Assembly (NCBI GenBank): GCA_946407195.1
Contig: CAMJNC010000005.1
Coordinates: 1-41,458, forward strand
Direction of reading: 5' to 3'
DNA: 41,458 bases
From: an uncultured Treponema sp.
GTDB taxonomy: Bacteria; Spirochaetota; Spirochaetia; Treponematales; Treponemataceae
The position numbers and the translations under genes are program-made. This document shows positions 1,568-36,616 of this stretch, piece after piece (positions within the stretch are counted from its first letter, which is position 1; the number at the start of each line of letters is the position of its first letter). The notes beneath the pieces were generated by a model. It was given only the letters and a program-made list of their open reading frames with translations. It was not told where the DNA came from and made no database searches.

Positions 1568-2023
1568 CTACTCCTCAGCCTTATGATTTTTTCGGTCCTG
1601 TAATTTCTGATTAATCTTTTTTGCCTGATTAAAATCAAACATATAAACAAGAATATAAACAGCAAAGAAAACCAGGAGGAACATGCCCTCCATTATAAGA
1701 ACAGATTTAAGGTTTGTTGAAAACCAGTAAAGCTTTAAACCTATTCCAAGCACAAGGGCATTAATCAAAAGAAAATATAAAATCCAGAAAATATTGAGCT
1801 GGAGTCTTGAAGATTTTTCCAGAGTATAAAAAAAGCCGAACAATAAGCCGGAAATAACACCTATAGCCAGTACACCCCAGATGTCGGAAATAGACCAGTG
1901 CTGAGCTTTGTTACCAGCAAGCAGTGGAATAATTGTTGCAAATATAAAAATAATTGTTACAACACGTGTACATATATTTATCATTACAGAAAACATATTG
2001 TCCTTTTCTTCGTAGTTTTTCAT
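1568..2023 (-). CDS. DUF3021-like four-helix membrane protein
   Basis: About four hydrophobic helices; 4-nt overlap with the LytTR gene, the usual context for DUF3021 proteins. Confidence 0.6.
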   Translation of the reverse strand: MKNYEEKDNMFSVMINICTRVVTIIFIFATIIPLLAGNKAQHWSISDIWGVLAIGVISGLLFGFFYTLEKSSRLQLNIFWILYFLLINALVLGIGLKLYWFSTNLKSVLIMEGMFLLVFFAVYILVYMFDFNQAKKINQKLQDRKNHKAEE

Positions 2024-2457
2024 AAGCCAAGTAACTCCTTTAAGGTATTAAGATAATTTCTTGAAATTACAACCTTGTATCCGTTCTGTAAAACAGCTTC
2101 AAAACGGCCTCCGAAAACTGGCAGCAGACTGTCAATTTTATCTACATTTACAATAACAGCCTTGCTTGCACGGAAAAAAGTATCAGATGGAAGTTCATTT
2201 TCGAGCTGATATAAGCGTGATTTAGTTTCATAAACCTCGTTCTTAGTGTAGGCAAAAACATTATCATCAACAGATTCAAAATAAAGAATATCGCGGGGGT
2301 CTACAAAAACAATTTTAGAATCCTTGTAAAAGTTCATTTTGCCTTTACCGGTCTTAAACTGATTTATAAGCTTTGTAAGACTTTCATCCAGATAATCGCA
2401 TTTTACGATTATCTCATCTTCCTCTCCTGCCTGTTTTTCAAGTATAGTAATTTTCAT
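2020..2457 (-). CDS. LytTR-family DNA-binding transcriptional regulator
   Basis: C-terminal half (VFVDPRDILYFESVDDNVFAYTKNEVYETKSRLYQLENELPSDTFFRASKAVIVNVDKIDSLLP...VVISRNYLNTLKELLGL) has typical LytTR features; no receiver domain. Confidence 0.88.
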   Translation of the reverse strand: MKITILEKQAGEEDEIIVKCDYLDESLTKLINQFKTGKGKMNFYKDSKIVFVDPRDILYFESVDDNVFAYTKNEVYETKSRLYQLENELPSDTFFRASKAVIVNVDKIDSLLPVFGGRFEAVLQNGYKVVISRNYLNTLKELLGL

Positions 2458-2471
2458 TAAGTCCTCTTAAT

Positions 2472-3572
2472 TTATTTTACCATTTTTTTTGCTTCTTGTA
2501 AGGCTAAAAATGCCTGAGATTCTTTTCCGCAATTGTTATAGCATTCATAAGCCATGACATAGCAATAGGCTTTCAAGGTTGGATCATCAGTAAGAGAAAC
2601 AATTTTCATAAAGTCCTCTGCTCCACTTTCTGCCTTACCGAAAACCTGATCTGGTACAGAGGCACTTACTGCGGCACGATTCATCAGTACATCAATTTCT
2701 CCGTCTTTTCCATTTGCAAGCTGTACGGCTTTATCAAGATAAGTATAAGCCTCGTTTACCAGAGCAAGAGCCTTCATAACACCTGCCTGTCCACCTTTAG
2801 CTGCAATGCAGGAACCATAATAGGCAAGGCTGATATAATCGTCCGGATTTTCCTGAATCTTTGACTTGTATAATGCAAGATTTGTTTCCAGATCTCCAGA
2901 CACATTGGAAATCATCCCCTTTTTATAATAAAGCTCCTTTATCTTTTGAACGTAGGCTTCAGTTTCTTTTTTGTTATCTTTATTTTTTAATTCAACTTTC
3001 ATGTCAACTTCACGCGGTGCGATTTTTGATAATTCATCAGAGAAAGCACCAGATACAACATAATGATATGATTTTGAAGCTCCAAGTATCTTTAAAAGCT
3101 CTTTATTTTTTAATGGAATGCGCAGCTTTAAGAGCTTTCCATCATTCAAAAAGCAGTTTTCTGTTTCACATAAAAGTTCATCTTTACTGTTATAAACAGC
3201 TCCCTTTTCTCCATTAATCAAGAGCTTATAATTCCATGATTTTTTTTCTGTATTATCAAGTGCAATAAAAATCATGATTTTTCTTTCTATAAGCGGATTG
3301 TTTTTGAATTCAAAATCCACCTGCCAGTAATCAGCATTTGCCTGCCATCTTGCATTTGTAACAGGCTGATGAATTGTATAACGAACAATTCCCTCCCCAT
3401 CATCTCCATTAAAATCAACAAAGTCTCCTGCCACAATTCCTCCTGTATACGAATAGTCTACATGAAGAAAAGAGCCTAAAAAGTTTTCCATAGTTGAAGA
3501 GTTTATAAAAAACAAAGTGATTCCAAAAAAACAGCCAATAGCAATAATTAAAGTTCTAATTTTATAAATCAT
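2472..3572 (-). CDS. Membrane-anchored extracytoplasmic protein with helical, TPR-like C-terminus
   Basis: N-terminal TM segment; C-terminal repeat-like helices (NPDDYISLAYYGSCIAAKGG...LNEAYTYLDKAVQLANG); 4-nt overlap with the upstream polyferredoxin gene. Confidence 0.65.
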   Translation of the reverse strand: MIYKIRTLIIAIGCFFGITLFFINSSTMENFLGSFLHVDYSYTGGIVAGDFVDFNGDDGEGIVRYTIHQPVTNARWQANADYWQVDFEFKNNPLIERKIMIFIALDNTEKKSWNYKLLINGEKGAVYNSKDELLCETENCFLNDGKLLKLRIPLKNKELLKILGASKSYHYVVSGAFSDELSKIAPREVDMKVELKNKDNKKETEAYVQKIKELYYKKGMISNVSGDLETNLALYKSKIQENPDDYISLAYYGSCIAAKGGQAGVMKALALVNEAYTYLDKAVQLANGKDGEIDVLMNRAAVSASVPDQVFGKAESGAEDFMKIVSLTDDPTLKAYCYVMAYECYNNCGKESQAFLALQEAKKMVK

Positions 3573-4738
3573 TTTACAAACACTCCTATAATCATATTGA
3601 TTGTCTTAATCATAAAGCCCGAAGACATAATTACAGCAAAGCTGAAGGCTGCAAAACGGAACAAAGTACCCGGTGAAAAAAGGTCCTTAAAAACAGGATT
3701 ACTGAAGGATTTTTTACCACAGCCGCAGCCACTCTTTTTCTGTGTAAAGCGGAACTCATAAGAAATTGCTTTCTGTGGACAAGCCTTAATACATTCACCG
3801 CATTTTGCACAGGTAATTTCCGGACGACCTTTCTTTTCCTGAATCGTTTTGATATCAATTGCATTGAAAGGACATGCTGAAGCACACTTCATACAGCCGA
3901 CACATTTTTCAGAATCAATTTTCATCTGGAAAATACTAAAGCGGTCTGTAAGTGAAGCAAAGGCACCAAATGGACAAAGTGTACTACACTGCATTCTTTT
4001 TTTAGTAAGGATTGGAAGAAGAACAACAAGTCCAAGGAATAATCCTACAAAAAGGATTGTCGCTATAAGGCTTGGAATTGAATTTACAGGACTATATTCA
4101 GTTACAAGCTTAAACGGACAGAACCATTCACAGTAAATACAGGCAAGCTCACAAAGGGATGCAAGAATAATAAAGAAGAAGAATCCAAACTGGAACTCAC
4201 GAATTTCTTTATTTTTTGCAAGAACCTTAATCCGAGGCTTTTTAGAAACATGACGGAAGCCTTCTTCCCAACCCCCATAAAAACAAATCCAGCTGCACCA
4301 GCCGCGGCCGACAGTAAGCGTACAGATAAGCCAGATTAAAAGCATACTTGCTACAGCAGCATAATGTCCCGAGATTCTTGCAGGGAAAATAATTGACTTT
4401 GTAATTAAAAGCGGAGTCAAAACCTGAGGAATAGCAATGTGACAGAATGGCAGTTCTGCATTACTCATAGCACTGCTTGTAATTGCCATGCTTCCACGTT
4501 CTGCAATTAAATCTGCAATGAATGCAGCACAAAAGCCGACAGCAAAAACACTCTGAAATATTCTGCGGTAAATTACACCGTTTCCATCTGATTTTTTTTC
4601 TGCAAAGGTCATTCGTACAAAAATAAAAATCAGAAAGGCTGCATAAATCAGACTTGCAATGGAAAAATTATTCATAAGTACAACAAAGAACAAAATTAAA
4701 AAGCTCATTAAAAAACTAAGTATCAAACTTGAAATCAT
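3569..4738 (-). CDS. NapH/CcoG-like membrane polyferredoxin (two 4Fe-4S motifs)
   Basis: CVGCMKCASACPFNAIDI and CAKCGECIKACPQKAISYEF are tandem CxxCxxCxxxCP motifs; GRGWCSWICFYGGWEE and several TM helices; extra GCGCGKK near the C-terminus. Confidence 0.88.
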   Translation of the reverse strand: MISSLILSFLMSFLILFFVVLMNNFSIASLIYAAFLIFIFVRMTFAEKKSDGNGVIYRRIFQSVFAVGFCAAFIADLIAERGSMAITSSAMSNAELPFCHIAIPQVLTPLLITKSIIFPARISGHYAAVASMLLIWLICTLTVGRGWCSWICFYGGWEEGFRHVSKKPRIKVLAKNKEIREFQFGFFFFIILASLCELACIYCEWFCPFKLVTEYSPVNSIPSLIATILFVGLFLGLVVLLPILTKKRMQCSTLCPFGAFASLTDRFSIFQMKIDSEKCVGCMKCASACPFNAIDIKTIQEKKGRPEITCAKCGECIKACPQKAISYEFRFTQKKSGCGCGKKSFSNPVFKDLFSPGTLFRFAAFSFAVIMSSGFMIKTINMIIGVFVK

Positions 4739-27086: not shown

Positions 27087-27584
27087 ATGAAAAAGACCGT
27101 TATTTTACTTTTTTCTGTTATGCTGATTTCTGCCGCTTTAATTTCCTGCGGTTCTAAACCTGCACAGACTTCAGAAAAGAAAGAGGCGCCTTCTGCTGAA
27201 ATTGTACTTAAGGATTTTTTCATTGCTGCAAATGACGCAGAATATTCTGATAAAATCGAAAAGATTACAAGCATCAAAACTGGAAGTGCAAACAAATACC
27301 GTGTCTTTTTCATTGTTGAAGATTCTAAGCTTGATGTAAAAAAGCTTTATACCTCTTTTGATAATTTTGCGGAAGCAGAAAATACAACAGAAAGAACAGT
27401 CAGCAAGCAGACAGAAGAAACTGAATGGTTCTGCTGGCAGAATGTTTACTTTGAAGGCTATGCCGGTGCTGCAACCTTCTATGCTTATGCAGAAGACGCC
27501 GAAGGCAATAAGAGTAAGGTTGTAACCTACAGCATTATTCTGGATGAAGAAAAGAGCAGTTCAAATCCATCTGAAGAAAAATAA
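27087..27584 (+). CDS. Hypothetical lipoprotein, 165 aa
   Basis: Lipobox LISAALISCGSK; 9 nt upstream of the SBP gene. Confidence 0.75.
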   Translation: MKKTVILLFSVMLISAALISCGSKPAQTSEKKEAPSAEIVLKDFFIAANDAEYSDKIEKITSIKTGSANKYRVFFIVEDSKLDVKKLYTSFDNFAEAENTTERTVSKQTEETEWFCWQNVYFEGYAGAATFYAYAEDAEGNKSKVVTYSIILDEEKSSSNPSEEK

Positions 27585-27593
27585 AAATAATTA

Positions 27594-28631
27594 ATGCAGA
27601 ACAAAATTAAAAAAATAAAAATACTTTCTGTTACAATTTTTATTGCTGCAATTCTCTTTCTTCTGCTGTTTCTATTTATAAATAGAAGTCCTTCTGGTGC
27701 TTCTAAAAAAGAAACAGCAGAACAGAACGGCAAGCTGATTCTGGGCTTTTCTCAGATTGGTTCTGAAAGTGCCTGGAGAACCCGTAACACACAGTCTATA
27801 TTTGAAGCCGCTGCCGAAAACGATATTCAGATAATTTTTGATGATGCTCAGCAGAAGCAGGAAAATCAGCTAAAGGCAATACGTTCTTTTATTGTATATC
27901 AGGTTGATGTAATTGCCTTTGTACCGATTGTAGAAGACGGCTGGGATAACGTTCTTACCGAAGCAAAGGAAGCAGGCATTCCTGTTATTCTCGTAGACCG
28001 ACAGATAAATGCCGACCCTTCACTATACGCTGGCTTTCTGGGAGAAGATGGTCTTGAAGAAGGACGCCGTGCAGCCCGCTTTCTTTTAAATAAGTGCAGA
28101 AACCGCAGCGGAACAATAAGCATTTACGAAATGTCTGGAACAGAAAACTCTTCTGTTGTGCGCGACCGTGCAAGAGGCTTCCGTGAAGTTATTTCTACAG
28201 ATCCTAAATTCCAGATTATACATTCTGAAGATGGAGACTTTCTCCGTTCCCGTGGAAAAGAAATTGCAGAAAATCTTATAACAAGCAGTCATAAAAAGAA
28301 CGGGCTTTATTTTGAAGGCCAGAAAATTGATGCAGTTTATTCGCATAACGACTCAATGACACTTGGTATGCTCGACTCAATTGAAAATTATGGAGTATAT
28401 ACAAAAGACACCATCATAATCAGTGTAGATGCCGAACAAAAATCAATTGATGCCTTAAAGGCCGGAAAGCTGAACTGCGTTGTTGAATGCAATCCAAACC
28501 TCGGGCCTATGCTCATGGAGCTTGTAAAACAGATTGCTGAAGGAAAAGCAATTCCACGCGTTACTTATAACAGCGAAACCTTCTTTACAGAAAACGATGA
28601 TTTTTCTACCTACGAGCCGCGCGGGTACTAA
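27594..28631 (+). CDS. Membrane-anchored YtfQ-like sugar-binding protein, predicted sensory co-component
   Basis: N-terminal TM anchor, then LILGFSQIGSESAWRTRN...FDDAQQKQENQLKAIRSFIVYQVDVIAFVPIVEDGWDNVLTEAKEAGIPVILVDR, closely resembling E. coli YtfQ. Confidence 0.9.
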   Translation: MQNKIKKIKILSVTIFIAAILFLLLFLFINRSPSGASKKETAEQNGKLILGFSQIGSESAWRTRNTQSIFEAAAENDIQIIFDDAQQKQENQLKAIRSFIVYQVDVIAFVPIVEDGWDNVLTEAKEAGIPVILVDRQINADPSLYAGFLGEDGLEEGRRAARFLLNKCRNRSGTISIYEMSGTENSSVVRDRARGFREVISTDPKFQIIHSEDGDFLRSRGKEIAENLITSSHKKNGLYFEGQKIDAVYSHNDSMTLGMLDSIENYGVYTKDTIIISVDAEQKSIDALKAGKLNCVVECNPNLGPMLMELVKQIAEGKAIPRVTYNSETFFTENDDFSTYEPRGY

Positions 28632-28643
28632 CGGGAGAAAAGT

Positions 28644-30110
28644 ATGAAGCAGGACCGAAGCCTCAGAAAAACTCTTCTCGTTACTTACATCTTCCTTCTT
28701 TTTATTACTCTTATCCCTTCAGTTTATTCTGTTCTGGTTTTTCAGATTCATACAGCAAGATATAATCAGATTATTTCAAACGTAAGCCGTGCAAATAAAA
28801 TCAGCTCTATTGCAAGAGATGAGATTCCAGCTGAGCTCTGGAATATTATCTGCGGTAAAAAAGAAATTGAAGACGGCGACCAGTATAAAATGAGCGATGA
28901 AATAATAACAGGTTTAACGCTCATGCTTTTAAAAACAAAAAACAACGAGAGCCGTGGAAAGCTTGAGGTTGCAACCAGAGCAAACACTACCCTGCGCCGT
29001 AATATAGACATGCTGATTATCAACATGAAAAACGGAAGCACTGTAACACAGAACGAAGCAGCCCTTGATGAAATCAGAACCATTACGGCTCTTTTTTCTG
29101 ACCTTATGCAGGAGTTCATTGTAACCGAAATTGAATCTGCAAATGAGACAAACCGCTCGCTCAAAAATACTTCTATCATTCTTACTGTAATTCAGGTTAT
29201 TATTACAGTCCTTGCTGTGTTAGCTTCAATTAACAGCTTTATTACCGTTTCCGGTGCAATTCAAAAACCAATCAGCGACATGGAAAAGCTTTCTACAAAG
29301 GTTTCTAACGGAGACCTTACTGCACGAATTGATATACCTCATGTAAACGAGCTCGATACACTTGCAAGCAACCTTAACACCATGACAGAACAGATTGATG
29401 TCCTTATCAAAAAGAATATGGAAGAGCAGAAGAATTTCCAGAAGGCCGAAATGAAGGCTCTTCAGGCACAGATTACTCCACACTTTTTGTATAACACCTT
29501 TGATACAATTGTCTGGCTTGCAGAAGAAGAGCATACCGAAGAGGTTGTAAAAATCACCAAGGCTTTTTCAGACTTCCTCCGTATCTCACTCAGCCGTGGT
29601 CATGAATGGATTACAATTGATCAGGAGCTGGACCATATCCGCAACTATCTTACCATTCAGAAAATCCGCTATGCAGATATTTTAAATTATAAAATTGATG
29701 CAGACGAATCCCTTATGAATTTTAAAATCATCAAGCTCGTGCTTCAGCCGCTTGTAGAAAACGCAATATATCACGGAATAAAAAATAAACGCGGCCGCGG
29801 CGAGCTTACTGTAAGTGTTCATTACTCAAATGAAAGTCATACTGCCATTCAGTTTTCCGTAGAAGACAATGGAGCAGGCTTTACAGAGGAACGTCTTGGA
29901 CAGGTTCGCAATGAGCTTAGAACCGGAGCCCAGGATTCCGAAAAGCTCTCTTCCGTATATGGTCTATATAATGTTAATAAAAAATTAAAGCTTTACTATG
30001 GCGAAAAGACAAATGGGCTTATAATAGAATCAGAGGCAGGAAAAGGTAGTAAAATTTCCTTTACAATTCCTGTAACCAGCGACTTTACTGAGGAGACAGA
30101 AAATGTATAG
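28644..30110 (+). CDS. Sensor histidine kinase, YesM/LytS-type
   Basis: Two TM segments around a short extracytoplasmic region, HAMP, phospho-acceptor EMKALQAQITPHFLYNTFDTIVWLAEE, ATPase NAIYHGIKNKRGRGEL...DNGAGF. Confidence 0.95.
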   Translation: MKQDRSLRKTLLVTYIFLLFITLIPSVYSVLVFQIHTARYNQIISNVSRANKISSIARDEIPAELWNIICGKKEIEDGDQYKMSDEIITGLTLMLLKTKNNESRGKLEVATRANTTLRRNIDMLIINMKNGSTVTQNEAALDEIRTITALFSDLMQEFIVTEIESANETNRSLKNTSIILTVIQVIITVLAVLASINSFITVSGAIQKPISDMEKLSTKVSNGDLTARIDIPHVNELDTLASNLNTMTEQIDVLIKKNMEEQKNFQKAEMKALQAQITPHFLYNTFDTIVWLAEEEHTEEVVKITKAFSDFLRISLSRGHEWITIDQELDHIRNYLTIQKIRYADILNYKIDADESLMNFKIIKLVLQPLVENAIYHGIKNKRGRGELTVSVHYSNESHTAIQFSVEDNGAGFTEERLGQVRNELRTGAQDSEKLSSVYGLYNVNKKLKLYYGEKTNGLIIESEAGKGSKISFTIPVTSDFTEETENV

Positions 30111-31734
30111 CGTTTTTGCTGTAGATGATGAACCAATTGTACTCGAAGGAATCCGCTCTAAAATTGACTGGGAAGGAAGCGGCTTTACCTTTGCCGGTGA
30201 AGCAACCGACGGTGAAATTGCACTCTCAATGATTCATGAAATTAAGCCTGATATTTTAATTACTGACATTAAAATGCCTTTTATGGACGGCTTACAGCTT
30301 TCTGAGGCAATTAAAAAAACTCAACCCTGGATTAAAATTATTATTCTTTCCGGTCATGACGAATTTGATTATGCTAAAAAAGCAATTTCAATTGGAATCG
30401 AAGATTATCTTTTAAAACCCTTCACTCCTGATGAACTATTAACAAGCCTTAATAAAACTGCAGCTCAGATTGATAAGGAACGCAAGCAGCTTTCCGACAT
30501 CTCTCGCCTCCGCGAAGAACTCAAAACCAGCGAAGCTCTTATTAAAAAGGAATTTCTGAACAACCTCGTCCACGGCTCTGAAGAAATGAATACCGTAATT
30601 CAAAAGAGCTCCGAACTCGGCCTTAATCTTATTTCGCGTTACTACAAGGTACTCATAAGCCGCATAGACAGCCGCACCGGCAACATTAACAATCAGCAGG
30701 AAGCCTGTTCTCTTTTGAACTCCTACTCCACTGCCATAAGCGAAGCTGTTTCGTTCTTTCACCATTCAAACCTCATGGTCTGCATATTTAAGGGAAGCAC
30801 ACAGGCCGAGCTTGATGACAACACCTTCCGTGCCGCAGAAACAATTGCTCATATTGCAACAAAAAATGAAGACTGCGTTGTCTTTACAGCCATAGGAAAA
30901 ACTGTAGAACACCTTTCTCAGCTTAAAACCTCTTACGAAGATGCAAAAAGCATTCTCGATAAAAACACTTCAAATGCCGGTAATGTAAAGGATGCAGCTT
31001 CAAACAGAATTATCAGTTCAGATGATATAAACGAAGATGAAACCACAACAGGAACTTCACAGGCAGCTTCTGAATATCTTGATATTTCAGAAAATGACCC
31101 GCTCGTAGACCGTCTCAAATACGCAGGTAAAAACGACATCTCCGCAATCATCGAAGAGTCTATGACTTTAATCCGAAACAACCCTGGACAGTTCAAGGTA
31201 TTTGCGTCTTATATTCTTGTAGATTTAATTTTCGCTGTTTCCAAGCTGATTGAAAAGCTTGGCGGTGACATGAAGCAGCTTAACCCGGAAATTTTACAGA
31301 GAAAGTTTATTGATGACGCGGTTCAGGATGAAAAGAATTTTACAAATATTCTGGAACAGGTTTTAAACTTTGCTTTGGAATACCGCGATTCAAAAATGAC
31401 CGGTAAATATGGAGATGTAATACTCAAGGCTAAAAAGTTTATCGAAGAAAACTACGCAGACCAGAACACAACCCTTACTACAGTTGCAGAAGCTGTATGC
31501 CTGAGCCCTAATCATTTTAGTGCTATTTTCTCTCAGGAATGCAAGACAACCTTTATTGAATACCTGACAAATGTTCGAATGGAAAATGCAAAACGCCTTA
31601 TGCGCGAAACTGATATGAAGGGTTATGATATTGCTTATGAATGTGGATTTTCTGATCCGCACTACTTCAGCTATATCTTCAAAAAAAATACGGGGCTTTC
31701 GCCCCGTGAATATAAGTTGAGTGTAGATAAATAA
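30103..31734 (+). CDS. Response regulator with AraC-type HTH output, YesN-type
   Basis: Receiver VFAVDDEPIVLEGI...PDILITDIKMPFMDGLQL; C-terminal AraC HTH (YIFKKNTGLSPREYK). 8-nt overlap with kinase gene. Confidence 0.95.
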   Translation: MYSVFAVDDEPIVLEGIRSKIDWEGSGFTFAGEATDGEIALSMIHEIKPDILITDIKMPFMDGLQLSEAIKKTQPWIKIIILSGHDEFDYAKKAISIGIEDYLLKPFTPDELLTSLNKTAAQIDKERKQLSDISRLREELKTSEALIKKEFLNNLVHGSEEMNTVIQKSSELGLNLISRYYKVLISRIDSRTGNINNQQEACSLLNSYSTAISEAVSFFHHSNLMVCIFKGSTQAELDDNTFRAAETIAHIATKNEDCVVFTAIGKTVEHLSQLKTSYEDAKSILDKNTSNAGNVKDAASNRIISSDDINEDETTTGTSQAASEYLDISENDPLVDRLKYAGKNDISAIIEESMTLIRNNPGQFKVFASYILVDLIFAVSKLIEKLGGDMKQLNPEILQRKFIDDAVQDEKNFTNILEQVLNFALEYRDSKMTGKYGDVILKAKKFIEENYADQNTTLTTVAEAVCLSPNHFSAIFSQECKTTFIEYLTNVRMENAKRLMRETDMKGYDIAYECGFSDPHYFSYIFKKNTGLSPREYKLSVDK

Positions 31735-31768: not shown

Positions 31769-31818
31769 TCGATGAACCTAAAACGACCCTTTCGGCTCGT
31801 TTTTTAACGGTTCTTCGA
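31769..31818. terminator. Terminator between convergent regulator and ABC permease genes
   Basis: aaAACGAccCTTTCGgcTCGTTttttt nested in CGATGAACC...GGTTCTTCG. Confidence 0.65.
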
Positions 31819-31827
31819 TTTTAGGCT

Positions 31828-32889
31828 TCAACCAGCCATATTACCCAGTTTCTTTTTTCTCTGTGAGAGAATGACACTCTGCAGGAGGATGAAGAATGCC
31901 AGCATAAGACCTGTAGTAATACTCTGCCAGTATGGCTCACGCAAACCAGAAGCAACTACGATGTTATTAATTGTCTTAAGAGACATAACACCGAACAAAG
32001 TTCCTACAACACTACCTACACCACCACTAAGCAAGGTTCCTCCAATAATCGAAGAAGCAATTGCCTGCATTTCTGCAGCAGTAGCATTAGAAGCGTTTCC
32101 GGCACCTGTATGAAGCAGATAACAGAAGCCTGCAATTCCGGCAAGAAGGCCACAAAGAATATAAGCAAGGAACTGTGTTCTTCTTACATTAATACCAAGC
32201 ATAAGCGCACTTTCGTTATTTCCACCAACTGCATACAGATTACGACCAAAGCGAGTCCATTTCAAAACAGCCCAGAGAATCAGAACAACCAGAAGTGCAA
32301 TTACAACACCAACTTCTATATAAGAAGGAATCCAGTTCCCATTTCTTGCATAATGACCAAGGAATGGAACATCAATTTCAAAATCCATTAAATCTGTAAA
32401 GAGCTCATTTGAAGCACTTCTAGGAACTTTACTTACTATAGTTGTCATACCGCGTGTAAAGAACATTCCGGCAAGAGTAACAATAAATGGCTGGATTTTC
32501 AGGTAAGAAACTAAGTAGCCCTGAATAAGACCCATAGCAAGACCAATTCCAAGAGACAGTAGAATTGAACTTAAAATTCCACCGTTATGATCTTCCATTA
32601 CAACGACACAAACCATTGTAATAAGAGAAATAGATCCACCAACCGAAATATCAATTCCACCGGTAATCATTACAATTGTAAGACCACAAGCCGCAACAAT
32701 CAGATATGCATTATTATTAAACAGATCAAGGAACTGCTGAGGATTTAAGAATCCGCCGCCCCAGATAAGCATTGCAAGCAGATACATTCCGACAAATGTA
32801 CAGATTGTAATTGTAAGAAGTAAAGCTGTGTTAGAAAGCGGCTGTCTGTTTTCTTTTTTACCAAACAGATTTGTAAAAATATTTGCCAT
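31828..32889 (-). CDS. Sugar ABC transporter permease, YjfF/RbsC-type
   Basis: AACGLTIVMITGGIDISVGGSISL, VGGNNESALMLGINVRRTQFLAYILCGLLAGIAG; multi-TM. Confidence 0.93.
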   Translation of the reverse strand: MANIFTNLFGKKENRQPLSNTALLLTITICTFVGMYLLAMLIWGGGFLNPQQFLDLFNNNAYLIVAACGLTIVMITGGIDISVGGSISLITMVCVVVMEDHNGGILSSILLSLGIGLAMGLIQGYLVSYLKIQPFIVTLAGMFFTRGMTTIVSKVPRSASNELFTDLMDFEIDVPFLGHYARNGNWIPSYIEVGVVIALLVVLILWAVLKWTRFGRNLYAVGGNNESALMLGINVRRTQFLAYILCGLLAGIAGFCYLLHTGAGNASNATAAEMQAIASSIIGGTLLSGGVGSVVGTLFGVMSLKTINNIVVASGLREPYWQSITTGLMLAFFILLQSVILSQRKKKLGNMAG

Positions 32890-32891
32890 AA

Positions 32892-33953
32892 TTATTTAGC
32901 CTCCTTCTTTGCTACAATCTTATCTTTGAGCTGACCAAGCCAGGTCTTTACAACCGGAGAACCTGCAACAACAATCAGAATAATTACAATAGCTTTATAA
33001 GCCTTTACAGCAGTAGAAGAAACCTTCATAGCATACAAAGTAATTGTAAGAGCCTGAATAATATAAGCACCAATGATAGAACCAGAAAGCTTAAACTTAC
33101 CACCACCAAGTGAGTTACCACCAATAGCAACTGCAAGAATAGCATCCATTTCTATATCAAGAAGGATTGTTTCGTGGTTGATAACTCCGATACGGCAAAC
33201 ATTCATGGCACCAGCCATTGTTACACAAATACCAAGAATTACAAAAACAACCATCTTCATCATTACAGGATTAATACCATTTAATCTTGCAGCACGCTCA
33301 TTAATACCTACAGCCTGAATATAAAGACTGAGTGTAGTCTTTTTCAGAATAAGATTAATCAGCACTATGAAAACTACAACCACAAGAATTGGAGTTGGAA
33401 TTGCAATATGCGGAATAAAGTTTCCAATATAAGTAATGATTGGAGCTTCAACGTTTGGTGTAGCACCTCCGTTAATCCAGTATGCAACAGGACGTCCTGC
33501 AGTAAACAGAATCAAAGAGGCAATCATCGGCTGAATATTGAACTTTGCAATCAGCAAACCATTAAACAGACAGAAGATTATTGCAACCATACATGCAATA
33601 ACAAGACCTGCAAATATTGTTCCACCATTTATTCCCCAAGCCTTGAGGATTTTTACAAATACAGAACCCGCAATGGCAGCAGATGCACCAATGGAAATAT
33701 CCTGTCCTTTAGCAGCTGAGGTTACAAGCGTCATTCCTATAGAAAGAATAACAAGCTCAGAAGCACCATTCAGAATACTGATTAAGTTACCCGAAAGAAC
33801 TGTATTTCCAAGATTATTCTTCATTATATCAATAGAGAAAAAGCTTGGATCCCGGATAAGATTGAATACAACCAGTACAATCAATGCAACCAGCGGAATT
33901 GCCAGCTGAGATGCAAAAAGCTTCTTTATCTGATTTAAAACTTTATTAGCCAT
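32892..33953 (-). CDS. Sugar ABC transporter permease, YtfT/RbsC-type
   Basis: LSIGMTLVTSAAKGQDISIGASAAIAG, AVGINERAARLNGINPVMMKM. ATG at 33953 (MANKV) preferred over upstream start at 33974. Confidence 0.92.
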   Translation of the reverse strand: MANKVLNQIKKLFASQLAIPLVALIVLVVFNLIRDPSFFSIDIMKNNLGNTVLSGNLISILNGASELVILSIGMTLVTSAAKGQDISIGASAAIAGSVFVKILKAWGINGGTIFAGLVIACMVAIIFCLFNGLLIAKFNIQPMIASLILFTAGRPVAYWINGGATPNVEAPIITYIGNFIPHIAIPTPILVVVVFIVLINLILKKTTLSLYIQAVGINERAARLNGINPVMMKMVVFVILGICVTMAGAMNVCRIGVINHETILLDIEMDAILAVAIGGNSLGGGKFKLSGSIIGAYIIQALTITLYAMKVSSTAVKAYKAIVIILIVVAGSPVVKTWLGQLKDKIVAKKEAK

Positions 33954-35463
33954 TTTGTGCTTTACCTCCCGCAATAGTCTGCATAATTACATCCTGACGC
34001 AAAAGATCATCCTTAAGCTCACCTACAATCTTGCGGTCACGCATAACGATAAGTCTCTGACATACAGAAAGCATCTCTTCAATCTCCGAAGAAATAAAGG
34101 TAACGCTTACACCCTCTTCTGCAAGCTTAAGAACAAGTTTCTGAATTTCAATTTTTGTACCTACGTCAATACCACGAGTAGGTTCATCAAGAATCAGATA
34201 CTGTGGATGAGTCAAAAGCCAGCGGGCAAGAATAACCTTCTGCTGATTTCCACCCGAGAGAGATTTAATAGGAGTTTCCTTAGAAGCTGTTTTGATATCC
34301 AGCATTTCAATAAACTCATCTGCAAGCTTTTCCTGGTCTGCACGAGGAATAGGCTTTGTAAATCCATCAAGCACCTGAAGGGCCAGAATAATATTTTCGC
34401 GGACAGAAAGATCCTGAATAATTCCGTCTCCCTTGCGGTCTTCCGGAAGGTAGCCTATACCAGCCTTCATAGCATCCTTTGGTCCATTTATTTTTACATC
34501 GCGGCCGTTAACCTTTACCTTACCGCCAGTTACACGGTCTGCAGCAAAGATTGCACGAACACTTTCACTACGTCCAGATCCAAGAAGTCCTGTAAAGCCG
34601 TTTACTTCACCCTTGTTAATAAGGAAGTTGAAAGGACGAACTCCTTCTGCACTTGAAAGACCTTCAGCCTCATAAACAACTTCACCCGCTCCTGAATAAG
34701 GGCGTTTCTGATTTTTGAGGTTTGTCATATCTTCCATGTCTTTACCGAGCATGGCAGAAATCAGCTTAACGCGAGGTAAATCTGCAATTGTGTATTCACC
34801 AACAAGTTCACCATTACGAAGAACTGTGATCTTATCACATACTTCATAAACCTGTTCCAGGAAGTGAGTAATAAAGATGATTCCTACCCCACGGCTCTTG
34901 AGGTCTCGCATCAGTGTAAACAAAAGTTCAACTTCGCGGTCATCAAGAGAAGAAGTTGGTTCATCAAGAATAAGAACCTTACAATCCATATCAACTGCAC
35001 GAGCAATCGCAACCATCTGCTGAATCGCAATAGAACAGGTACCAAGCTGCTGTGTAGCCTTCGCCGGAATGTTTAATTTTTCAAGAAGCTCTGTAGCCTT
35101 TTTTTCCTGAGCACGGTGATTTACAAACTTGTAGTTACCGCGTCCTATATACATATTCTCTGCCACTGTAAGATTAGGACAGAGAGTTATTTCCTGATAT
35201 ACTGTAGCAATACCCAGATTCTGAGCATCCTGAGGAGAACGAATAGAAACAGGACCTTCAATTCCTGCAATTCTGATTTCGCCGGAGTCTTTTTCGTATA
35301 CACCGGTCAGAACCTTTACCAGAGTTGATTTTCCGGCACCGTTCTCTCCCATAAGTGCGTGAATTTCGCCTTCACGCAGAGTAAAGTCAACATTTTGAAG
35401 AGCCTTTACTCCAGGGAATTCTTTATAAATTCCACGTGCACTTAAAACTATTTTTTCTTCCAT
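33946..35463 (-). CDS. Sugar ABC transporter ATPase, two nucleotide-binding domains (YtfR/RbsA-type)
   Basis: GENGAGKSTLVKVLTG, LILDEPTSSLDD, LSGGNQQKVILARWLL, LILDEPTRGIDVGTK. ATG at 35463 (MEEKIVLSARG) preferred over GTG at 35475. Confidence 0.95.
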   Translation of the reverse strand: MEEKIVLSARGIYKEFPGVKALQNVDFTLREGEIHALMGENGAGKSTLVKVLTGVYEKDSGEIRIAGIEGPVSIRSPQDAQNLGIATVYQEITLCPNLTVAENMYIGRGNYKFVNHRAQEKKATELLEKLNIPAKATQQLGTCSIAIQQMVAIARAVDMDCKVLILDEPTSSLDDREVELLFTLMRDLKSRGVGIIFITHFLEQVYEVCDKITVLRNGELVGEYTIADLPRVKLISAMLGKDMEDMTNLKNQKRPYSGAGEVVYEAEGLSSAEGVRPFNFLINKGEVNGFTGLLGSGRSESVRAIFAADRVTGGKVKVNGRDVKINGPKDAMKAGIGYLPEDRKGDGIIQDLSVRENIILALQVLDGFTKPIPRADQEKLADEFIEMLDIKTASKETPIKSLSGGNQQKVILARWLLTHPQYLILDEPTRGIDVGTKIEIQKLVLKLAEEGVSVTFISSEIEEMLSVCQRLIVMRDRKIVGELKDDLLRQDVIMQTIAGGKAQNG

Positions 35464-35478
35464 AAATAATCCCACGTA

Positions 35479-35522
35479 TTAAAAAAAACGGCGTAAAATA
35501 TGGATTACACACTTTACGCCGT
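35479..35522 (-). terminator. Intercistronic terminator/attenuator hairpin between SBP and ATPase genes
   Basis: Perfect 10-bp stem ACGGCGTAAA (35488-35497) / TTTACGCCGT (35513-35522), 15-nt loop, followed on the minus strand by eight T. Confidence 0.75.
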
Positions 35523-35550
35523 ATCAAACTATTACAAGAGTTGTTTGATA

Positions 35551-36510
35551 TTAGTCACCAAGACCGTATGTATCGATATCAGCCTGTGTGATTGTTTTAG
35601 CATCGAATCCCTTTTCTTCATTGATGATTTTCTTTGAAGGAACCTTGCCAGTCTTAATCATGTTTTCGATTACAGCAGCCTGGAATGGTGAACACTGTCC
35701 ATCGTAGTTCCAGTTTCCAGCGAGAAGTTCGCGGAGAGCCCACTTGTTACAGTCGAATCCCATTACGATAACTTTTCCCTTTACACCGTGAGTAATACCA
35801 GCTGCATCAAGAGCTGCAACAGCACCCTTAGCCATATCATCATTTTCTGCATAGATTACGTTGAAGTCTTCTTTTGAGTTGATAACAGATTCAACGATCT
35901 TCTTTGCTTCATCAGCACTCCAGTTACCTGTCTGCTGAACAACCTTCTTCATTGTTCCTGCAGCAAATTCCTTGTCCAAAGCACCTGTACGTCCGAGCTG
36001 AGCGTCAGATCCCATTACACCCTGGATATGAATTACTTTATATTCTTTAAGCTTCTGATTCTTAAGCCATGCAACAGCTGTTTCACCTTCTTTAGCCATA
36101 TCTGAAACTACAGCTGCATCATAAAGGTTTTCTTTTGCAGAAACCATGCGGTCAAACAAGAATACTTTGATTCCAGCTTTCTGTGCAGATTTGAGAGTCT
36201 TATCCCATCCGTCTGTAGCAGCAGCAGAAAGAAGAATGTAGTCTACACCGTCTGTAATGAACTGTGCAGCAGCATTCAACTGCTCTTCATTCTTTAAACT
36301 GTAGAAAGTCTTAACATCATAACCCTTAGCTGCAGTAAATACAGTTTCCATGTCCTTTACGTTAGCAGCGCGGTATCCTGATTCTGAAGGTGGGTTGTTA
36401 ATGATACCAATCTTAATCTTTCCATCACCAGCCTTTGCCTTCTTTTTTGGAGCGGCAAACAATGATGCTACACACATAAGTGCAATAGCAACAATAACGC
36501 TTTTTTTCAT
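35551..36510 (-). CDS. Periplasmic sugar-binding protein of the ABC transporter
   Basis: Signal peptide MKKSVIVAIALMCVASLFAA; IGIINNPPSESGYRAANVKDMETVF...GVDYILLSAAATDGWDKTLKSAQKAGIKVFLFDR; SD AGGAGG. Confidence 0.94.
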   Translation of the reverse strand: MKKSVIVAIALMCVASLFAAPKKKAKAGDGKIKIGIINNPPSESGYRAANVKDMETVFTAAKGYDVKTFYSLKNEEQLNAAAQFITDGVDYILLSAAATDGWDKTLKSAQKAGIKVFLFDRMVSAKENLYDAAVVSDMAKEGETAVAWLKNQKLKEYKVIHIQGVMGSDAQLGRTGALDKEFAAGTMKKVVQQTGNWSADEAKKIVESVINSKEDFNVIYAENDDMAKGAVAALDAAGITHGVKGKVIVMGFDCNKWALRELLAGNWNYDGQCSPFQAAVIENMIKTGKVPSKKIINEEKGFDAKTITQADIDTYGLGD

Positions 36511-36551: not shown

Positions 36552-36616
36552 ATATTAAGCCTGCCAGGAGTATTTTTGAATGAAGATTTTTAGGAATTTA
36601 ATTTGAAATTTTTAGG
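36552..36616 (-). promoter_or_regulatory. ABC operon promoter with AraC-type direct-repeat operator candidate
   Basis: Direct repeat ATTTTTAGGA (plus-strand reading) at 36586 and 36608, 22-bp period; adjacent minus-strand promoter TTCAAA - 17 nt - TAATAT (36552-36580). Confidence 0.55.

Follow-up and report, generated by a model that had tools for sequence, protein, structure and literature searches.

A predicted three-component sugar sensor beside a separate ABC importer in an uncultured Treponema

A sensor operon that faces an importer operon

The window, the whole 41,458-nucleotide stretch of uncultured Treponema DNA analyzed here, contains two convergent groups of genes. On the plus strand, three co-oriented genes (27594-31734) encode a solute-binding protein (SBP), which we call SBP1, a histidine kinase and a response regulator. 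On the minus strand, an ATP-binding cassette (ABC) operon (31828-36510) carries the YjfF-YtfT-YtfR-SBP2 genes, the last of which encodes the importer's own SBP. Together, they very probably form a three-component system in which a sugar sensor switches on an importer encoded apart from it, with L-arabinose as the most likely ligand. The source genome (G000; 2.73 Mb, 293 contigs, 75% complete) belongs to a rumen Treponema close to T. bryantii, and in our tree the window's SBP1 is sister to the SBP1 of strain NK4A124. Below, labels beginning with L, G and C denote loci, genomes and contigs.

SBP1 (27594..28631, +; 345 aa) has a GafA/YtfQ-like fold according to Foldseek, matches PF13407 (Peripla_BP_4, E 3e-39) and is predicted to be membrane-tethered. 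The kinase (28644..30110, +; 488 aa) is of the YesM/LytS type, with a HAMP domain at residues 203-251, His_kinase (PF06580) and HATPase_c (PF02518) domains and a predicted phospho-His 280 in the motif PHFLYN. The YesN-type regulator (30103..31734, +; 543 aa) combines a receiver (PF00072), in which the motif DILITDIKMP marks the predicted phospho-Asp 55, with PF17853 (GGDEF_2) and a C-terminal AraC helix-turn-helix (PF12833). Only 12 nt separate the SBP1 stop from the kinase start, and the kinase and regulator genes overlap by 8 nt; 27594-31734 is an SBP-kinase-regulator operon of the XylFII-LytS-YesN kind. Coordinates and Pfam domains thus agree with an earlier sequence-only reading of this DNA, which had placed the SBP 12 nt upstream of a kinase that is followed by an AraC-type regulator.

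The convergent operon encodes a YjfF-like permease (31828..32889, −; PF02653; NCBIfam YjfF 246 bits, below cut-off), a YtfT-like permease (32892..33974, −; PF02653; NCBIfam YtfT 185 bits, below cut-off), a YtfR-like ATPase (33946..35475, −; NCBIfam YtfR 656 bits against a cut-off of 850) and SBP2 (35551..36510, −; 319 aa; PF13407, E 9e-33). Both SBPs fall below the 510-bit cut-off of the YtfQ equivalog model NF041827 (SBP1, 240 bits; SBP2, 132 bits). As had been read from the sequence, SBP2 carries an ordinary signal peptide (ASLFAAPKK). Its orthologs among transport SBPs are split between about 20 of the signal peptidase I type and 18 of the lipobox type, and by these predictions solubility is not what separates sensor from transport SBPs.

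We examined the pairing of SBP1 and kinase in 66 non-actinobacterial loci (the window and loci from genome contigs). The kinase gene lies directly 3' of the SBP1 gene in 65 of them, across two phyla, a gene order that is far from chance, and this co-occurrence agrees with the sequence-only reading. The exception, L090, has in place of the kinase and regulator genes a single 920-aa open reading frame (ORF; 1689-4448) that follows the sensor SBP and matches the regulator; it may be a kinase-regulator fusion. Micromonosporaceae matches (L097, L098, L100-L111) are ordinary GafA transport SBPs, adjoined by an ABC ATPase gene instead of a kinase gene. In the tree, the sensor SBPs form a single clade apart from the transport SBPs (support 100/100; the method warns of long branches elsewhere). 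Because SBP1 belongs to a transport SBP family, it could be read as an additional receptor that delivers substrate to the ABC permeases and lies next to a kinase by accident. This is extremely unlikely, as its gene is joined to a kinase gene rather than a transporter in those 65 loci, the sensors have a clade of their own and the neighboring transporters have their own SBP.

Sensor and transporter also go together across the genus. The sensor was found in 73 of 146 Treponema genomes; 67 have both the sensor and a transporter (SBP2-high or GafA), 6 the sensor only, 6 the transporter only and 67 neither. Genomes with a close SBP2 nearly all have the sensor (42/43), compared to 0/20 of those with a distant SBP2 (61-65%), and a GafA-type SBP is present in 28 sensor-bearing genomes. 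Given the 28% identity between SBP1 and SBP2 and their separate clades, we rejected the idea that the sensor and transport SBPs arose from a single protein by recent duplication. The earlier proposal that sensing and transport use separate, related binding proteins is supported, with corrections: the proteins are separate, and a conserved candidate operator, described below, links the sensor to the importer, but they are not close paralogs and the pocket of SBP2 is altered.

Membrane tether and docking domain

The N-terminus of SBP1, MQNKIKKIKILSVTIFIAAILFLLLFLFINRSPSGASKK, contains 20 consecutive uncharged, hydrophobic residues (Kyte-Doolittle value of 3.07 over 19 residues), and no lipobox was found in the window's SBP1. 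In the AlphaFold2 model, residues 2-30 are helical and residues 32-44 form a disordered linker, followed by the binding domain, with a predicted local distance difference test score (pLDDT) of 91.7. We assign the transmembrane anchor to residues 10-30 (27621..27683, +), a feature shared by most T. bryantii-clade orthologs, and a flexible linker to residues 31-46 (27684..27731, +), which are poorly conserved and have pLDDT below 50 at 32-44. The anchor is where the sequence-only reading had put it. That reading took it to stand in for a cleavable signal peptide; the comparison with orthologs indicates that it replaces a lipoprotein anchor rather than a soluble form. Among the orthologs of the transport SBP, too, roughly half are lipoproteins.

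Among the 66 loci, 19 match the lipobox pattern and 47 do not. Nearly all of the 47 have a hydrophobic run of 18-27 residues, with a few partial or masked. These calls have exceptions in both directions: two of the non-matching proteins end in the lipobox variant AGC, and some of the matches, few in number, sit within a long transmembrane run. In the hand-corrected tree set, 27 SBP1 proteins are lipid-anchored, 40 are of the transmembrane type and 6 are ambiguous. Anchor type changes 8 times by parsimony from a lipid-anchored root, and nearly all outgroups (Clostridia and other spirochetes) have a lipobox, although L087 is of the transmembrane type. Judged from this root and these outgroups, the transmembrane anchor is derived; some members have reverted to a lipid anchor, with some predicted tether kept throughout. 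Tethering is thus the predicted conserved trait of the sensor SBP, nearly always provided by one of two interchangeable anchors.

We also considered whether the hydrophobic segment of SBP1 might be a signal peptide, cleaved after SPSGA to leave a soluble protein. Formally, SGA/SK could serve signal peptidase I, with serine at −3 and alanine at −1. Nevertheless, we judge cleavage very unlikely: the 20-residue hydrophobic core is longer than that of a typical signal peptide, most orthologs of the transmembrane type have mainly charged or polar residues after the core, and no cleavage site is conserved in the transmembrane-anchored clade. Furthermore, lipobox orthologs are scattered among the transmembrane ones on the tree, which argues that tethering is what is kept.

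In an AlphaFold2 model of kinase residues 1-256 (pLDDT 90), helices at 7-69, 80-97, 101-129 and 134-221 form a four-helix bundle that runs into both transmembrane segments. Its ectodomain (approximately residues 34-173; 28743..29162, +) is a putative docking domain for SBP1. With Foldseek, it superposes on 5xsj_L, the LytSN chain of the XylFII-LytSN complex, with a template-modeling score of 0.86 by target and a root-mean-square deviation of 2.2 Å over 122 columns of a whole-length alignment. XylFII sits on helices H3/H4 of LytS in the XylFII-LytS complex (PMC9769921). The superposition fits the XylFII-LytS precedent that the sequence-only reading had named, and it supports docking of the SBP on the kinase without proving it. 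The same reading had described the extracytoplasmic region as short; an ectodomain is present, but at about 140 residues it is not very short. Elsewhere in the family, HAMP has been lost in the sensor-kinase subclade L064-L067 (kinase residues 207-258 missing) and, independently, in L083 (199-243 missing).

A tandem repeat at the importer promoter

Upstream of SBP2, two 22-bp direct repeats, TTCCTAAAAATTTCAAATTAAA TTCCTAAAAATCTTCATTCAAA, lie in tandem from 36618 to 36575 on the minus strand. They share the core TTCCTAAAAAT, and the proximal one ends in a −35-like TTCAAA, 17 bp before a candidate −10 element TAATAT (36552..36557, −) or similar. The −10 position is conserved across aligned SBP2 promoters. 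We regard the repeat as a candidate operator for this regulator. AraC-type activators typically use a tandem array, of about 22 bp, right next to the −35 element. By a strict scan, the SBP2 promoter has no sigma-70 consensus, which is compatible with an activator-dependent promoter that has a poor −35.

The window contains a single instance of the spaced operator pattern, against an expectation of zero. It is likewise found once per genome in G000, G105, G003, G015 and G074, always at the promoter of SBP2. Two genomes without the sensor were scanned as well: the pattern is absent from G045, and G021 has one 3-mismatch match elsewhere, equal to its control count. When scored with a matrix, 39 SBP2 promoters of sensor-bearing Treponemataceae reach 27-65 bits at about −108/−86 (40/40 with the window), values that are circular since the matrix was trained on SBP2 promoters; the other promoter sets were outside the training. 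The best of 967 other upstream regions, our null set, scores 6.0 bits. Site-aligned pairwise identity is 0.73-0.78 in the repeats and 0.67 at the −10 element, falling to 0.34-0.42 in the flanks.

The distribution of the site follows that of the sensor. Sensor-less SBP2 promoters, including those of L135-L138, score 6.0, 0.3, −17.9, −23.6 and −28.2 bits, at or below the null maximum, and the operator is absent in the sensor-less G040 (L130). Conversely, of 11 GafA promoters beside sensors in the Treponema family, 6 score above every null region (two of the 6 have one and the same sequence), and 2 more lie at 0.001. The site is also present at L129, where the ABC operon is approximately 34 kb from the sensor. 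Missing from SBP2 promoters that lack a sensor and recurring in weaker form at GafA promoters that have one, the operator tracks the sensor and not the transporter, as judged from sequence. A conserved tandem site at the importer promoter, distributed in this way, suggests that the regulator controls the separate importer.

The link between regulator and site is drawn from co-occurrence and position, so the repeat could instead be the operator of another regulator, leaving this one to control other genes. We find this quite unlikely. Such a regulator would have to account for the loss of the site where SBP2 is kept without the sensor operon (L130, L135-L138), for its presence at the unlinked SBP2 operon of L129 and at GafA promoters that adjoin sensors of this family, and for an array typical of AraC-type activators.

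A weaker tandem site (27.8 bits; L161:1854-1899) lies just upstream of an FGGY ribulokinase-like gene on contig C92 of the window's genome, and several close relatives have one too. Ribulokinase-like promoters score 10-28 bits in this genome and several relatives, the sites being clear chiefly among the nearest relatives, along with two other species. Scores differ between 20 sensor-bearing and 20 sensor-less genomes (Mann-Whitney p 3e-4), but because the species are not independent, this operator-like site is only suggestive.

Two other features flank the sensor genes. An inverted repeat (31780..31803) with 10-nt arms, 90% complementary, and a 4-nt loop lies between the convergent regulator and permease genes and is a possible terminator. 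About 10 nt upstream of SBP1, a 165-aa lipoprotein-like ORF (LISCGSKP; 27087-27584, +) has no Pfam match, and the synteny scan showed no counterpart at the other loci.

Ligand, mechanism and precedents

The closest Foldseek structures to SBP1 are 6hbm and 6hbd, which are MSMEG_1712 with L-arabinofuranose or galactofuranose; the nearest by fold is the alpha-L-arabinofuranose complex. In GafA, a Phe and a Trp hold the sugar ring and an Arg-Asp pair tunes size (PMC10191376). SBP1 has this clamp and pair (F52, W61, R62, D135), and F52, W61, R62, D135, R136, R192, N252 and D279 are invariant in 73 sensors. Adjoining genes point to the sugar. In T. zioleckii (L093/L128), araD, araA (760 bits; cut-off 622) and a ribulokinase-like FGGY kinase gene are divergent from the sensor. 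L140/L141 have the order kinase-araA-araD-LacI-SBP1-kinase-regulator, and L125-L127 have kinase-araD-SBP1. The window's own genome has an FGGY kinase on C92 (97% to the G015 kinase) and an araD split over C92/C98. This linkage favors L-arabinose, perhaps as L-arabinofuranose, as the probable ligand. The sequence-only reading had inferred a Galf-like or other furanose/pentose ligand from YtfQ similarity; we set galactofuranose aside as the first choice because the adjoining genes are arabinose genes.

A sensed sugar other than L-arabinose, such as D-galactofuranose, L-ribulose or another furanose or pentose, within an otherwise identical system is possible, if doubtful. GafA proteins that prefer L-arabinofuranose and those that prefer D-galactofuranose have identical pocket residues and bind both sugars (PMC10191376), and the lack of araA in most SBP2-bearing genomes, although they have an AraK-like kinase and AraD, would fit L-ribulose. 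Against this, relatives with the same pocket adjoin araA-araD-kinase genes. Galactose-gene linkage was not seen at the loci examined here, nor is it reported for gaf clusters (PMC10191376). In the sensor-less L135 and L136, a distant SBP2-type ABC operon is divergent from the kinase gene and araD, which by gene content links this importer type to L-ribulose metabolism without a sensor.

Several observations weigh against an L-arabinose sensor that controls this importer. The araA gene (NF002795, PF02610) is absent from G000 and from a further 11 genomes of the T. bryantii clade, in which AraK-like kinase and AraD are retained. Genus-wide, it occurs in 4 of 43 genomes with an SBP2 transporter (three of which also have GafA), compared to 25 of 33 with a GafA transporter. 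L-arabinose use is therefore not closed as a pathway in most SBP2-bearing genomes; either the isomerase is of an unrecognized kind, or the sugar taken up through SBP2 joins the pathway at L-ribulose. The kinase-araD neighborhood of T. bryantii-type genomes contains no isomerase, the neighbors being recO, recJ, a peptidase, DNA ligase and similar genes. In the SBP2 clamp, Ile replaces Phe52 and Tyr replaces Trp61 (R62, D135, R136, R192, N252 and D279 are kept), so a shared ligand is not assured and SBP2 may bind a different one. Four-helix bundles are common, and those of NarQ and chemoreceptors also match the kinase ectodomain, so the LytS match is not specific. The Fisher p for co-occurrence is tiny yet uncorrected for phylogeny, as is promoter conservation. 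The operator matrix gives no score at the SBP2 promoters of the two Lachnospiraceae loci, L094 and L096, whose regulators are only 34-35% identical. Lastly, no tandem site above 12 bits lies upstream of SBP1 in the window, and autoregulation of SBP1 through such a site was rejected.

With these points weighed, control of the importer by an L-arabinose sensor is still the reading we prefer. Gene order, domains, predicted tether, co-occurrence and operator conservation are its sequence-based part; from knowledge of the families, we infer the ligand, the SBP-kinase complex, the phosphorelay, binding of the regulator to the site and activation over repression. Tethered SBP1 would bind a periplasmic monosaccharide, most likely L-arabinose and perhaps L-arabinofuranose, and the loaded protein would dock on the four-helix-bundle ectodomain of the neighboring kinase in the same membrane. 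The kinase would then pass phosphate from His280 to Asp55 of the regulator, both predicted from motifs, and the regulator would bind the tandem 22-bp repeat and activate the ABC operon. In some species, it would probably also activate the operon of the ribulokinase-like kinase and AraD.

Systems of this kind are already known. In Clostridium beijerinckii, XylFII-LytS-YesN responds to D-xylose, and the membrane-bound, XylF-related sensor helps induce a separate ABC importer that has its own SBP (PMC4706839). The window shares the separate importer with its own SBP and, by prediction, the tethered sensor and the superposable kinase ectodomain. Unlike XylFII, SBP1 belongs to the GafA/YtfQ group, and XylFII (5xsj_X) matches its sequence only at E 4e-5; Treponema is also diderm, and many SBP1 orthologs are lipid-anchored. 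A second likeness is the Geobacillus arabinose cluster, an arrangement of the AraPST type. In it, genes for an SBP, a histidine kinase and an AraC-type regulator come first, and a distinct SBP-ABC system and araD/ribulokinase genes come next (PMC4428132, Table 6). We liken the two by arrangement, not by AraP sequence; in the window, the ABC operon is convergent and there are no ara genes. The cellobiose system CuaDSR of Ruminiclostridium cellulolyticum likewise has a sensor SBP (CuaD), a kinase (CuaS) and a regulator (CuaR) next to a transporter that is served by another SBP, and CuaD binds CuaS (PMC10384115). However, CuaD is a lipoprotein that binds a disaccharide, and the CuaS ectodomain is larger (transmembrane helices 30-49 and 316-339). 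The GafA/YtfQ proteins (MSMEG_1712, Shewanella GafA and E. coli YtfQ) share fold, pocket residues and 36-44% identity in Foldseek alignments with SBP1. They are transport receptors, whereas SBP1 is predicted to be tethered, lies beside a kinase gene and falls under the YtfQ equivalog cut-off. Our literature search found no paper on such a system in Treponema. What is apparently new is the GafA-type sensor in spirochetes, the swapping of anchors and a conserved operator that recurs at another type of importer.

More speculatively, and with considerable doubt, the sensor might read furanose L-arabinose that is transiently freed from plant polymers. One sensor-regulator-operator module would then have been rewired between two non-orthologous Treponema ABC importers, the GafA type with araA and the SBP2 type mostly without. 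The SBP2 branch would feed an L-ribulokinase-like kinase and AraD through an unrecognized isomerase or by uptake of L-ribulose.

If the preferred reading, in which an L-arabinose sensor controls the importer, is correct, it adds rumen and gut Treponema to the bacteria that sense sugar outside the cell with a dedicated, tethered binding protein, and it offers an operator and a ligand that can be tested. The missing L-arabinose isomerase of known type points to a gap in the rumen pentose pathway. That lipid and transmembrane anchors have replaced each other repeatedly would be natural evidence for the importance of tethering, and the same sensor family with a related operator at two importers suggests a regulatory module that outlasts the transporter under its control.

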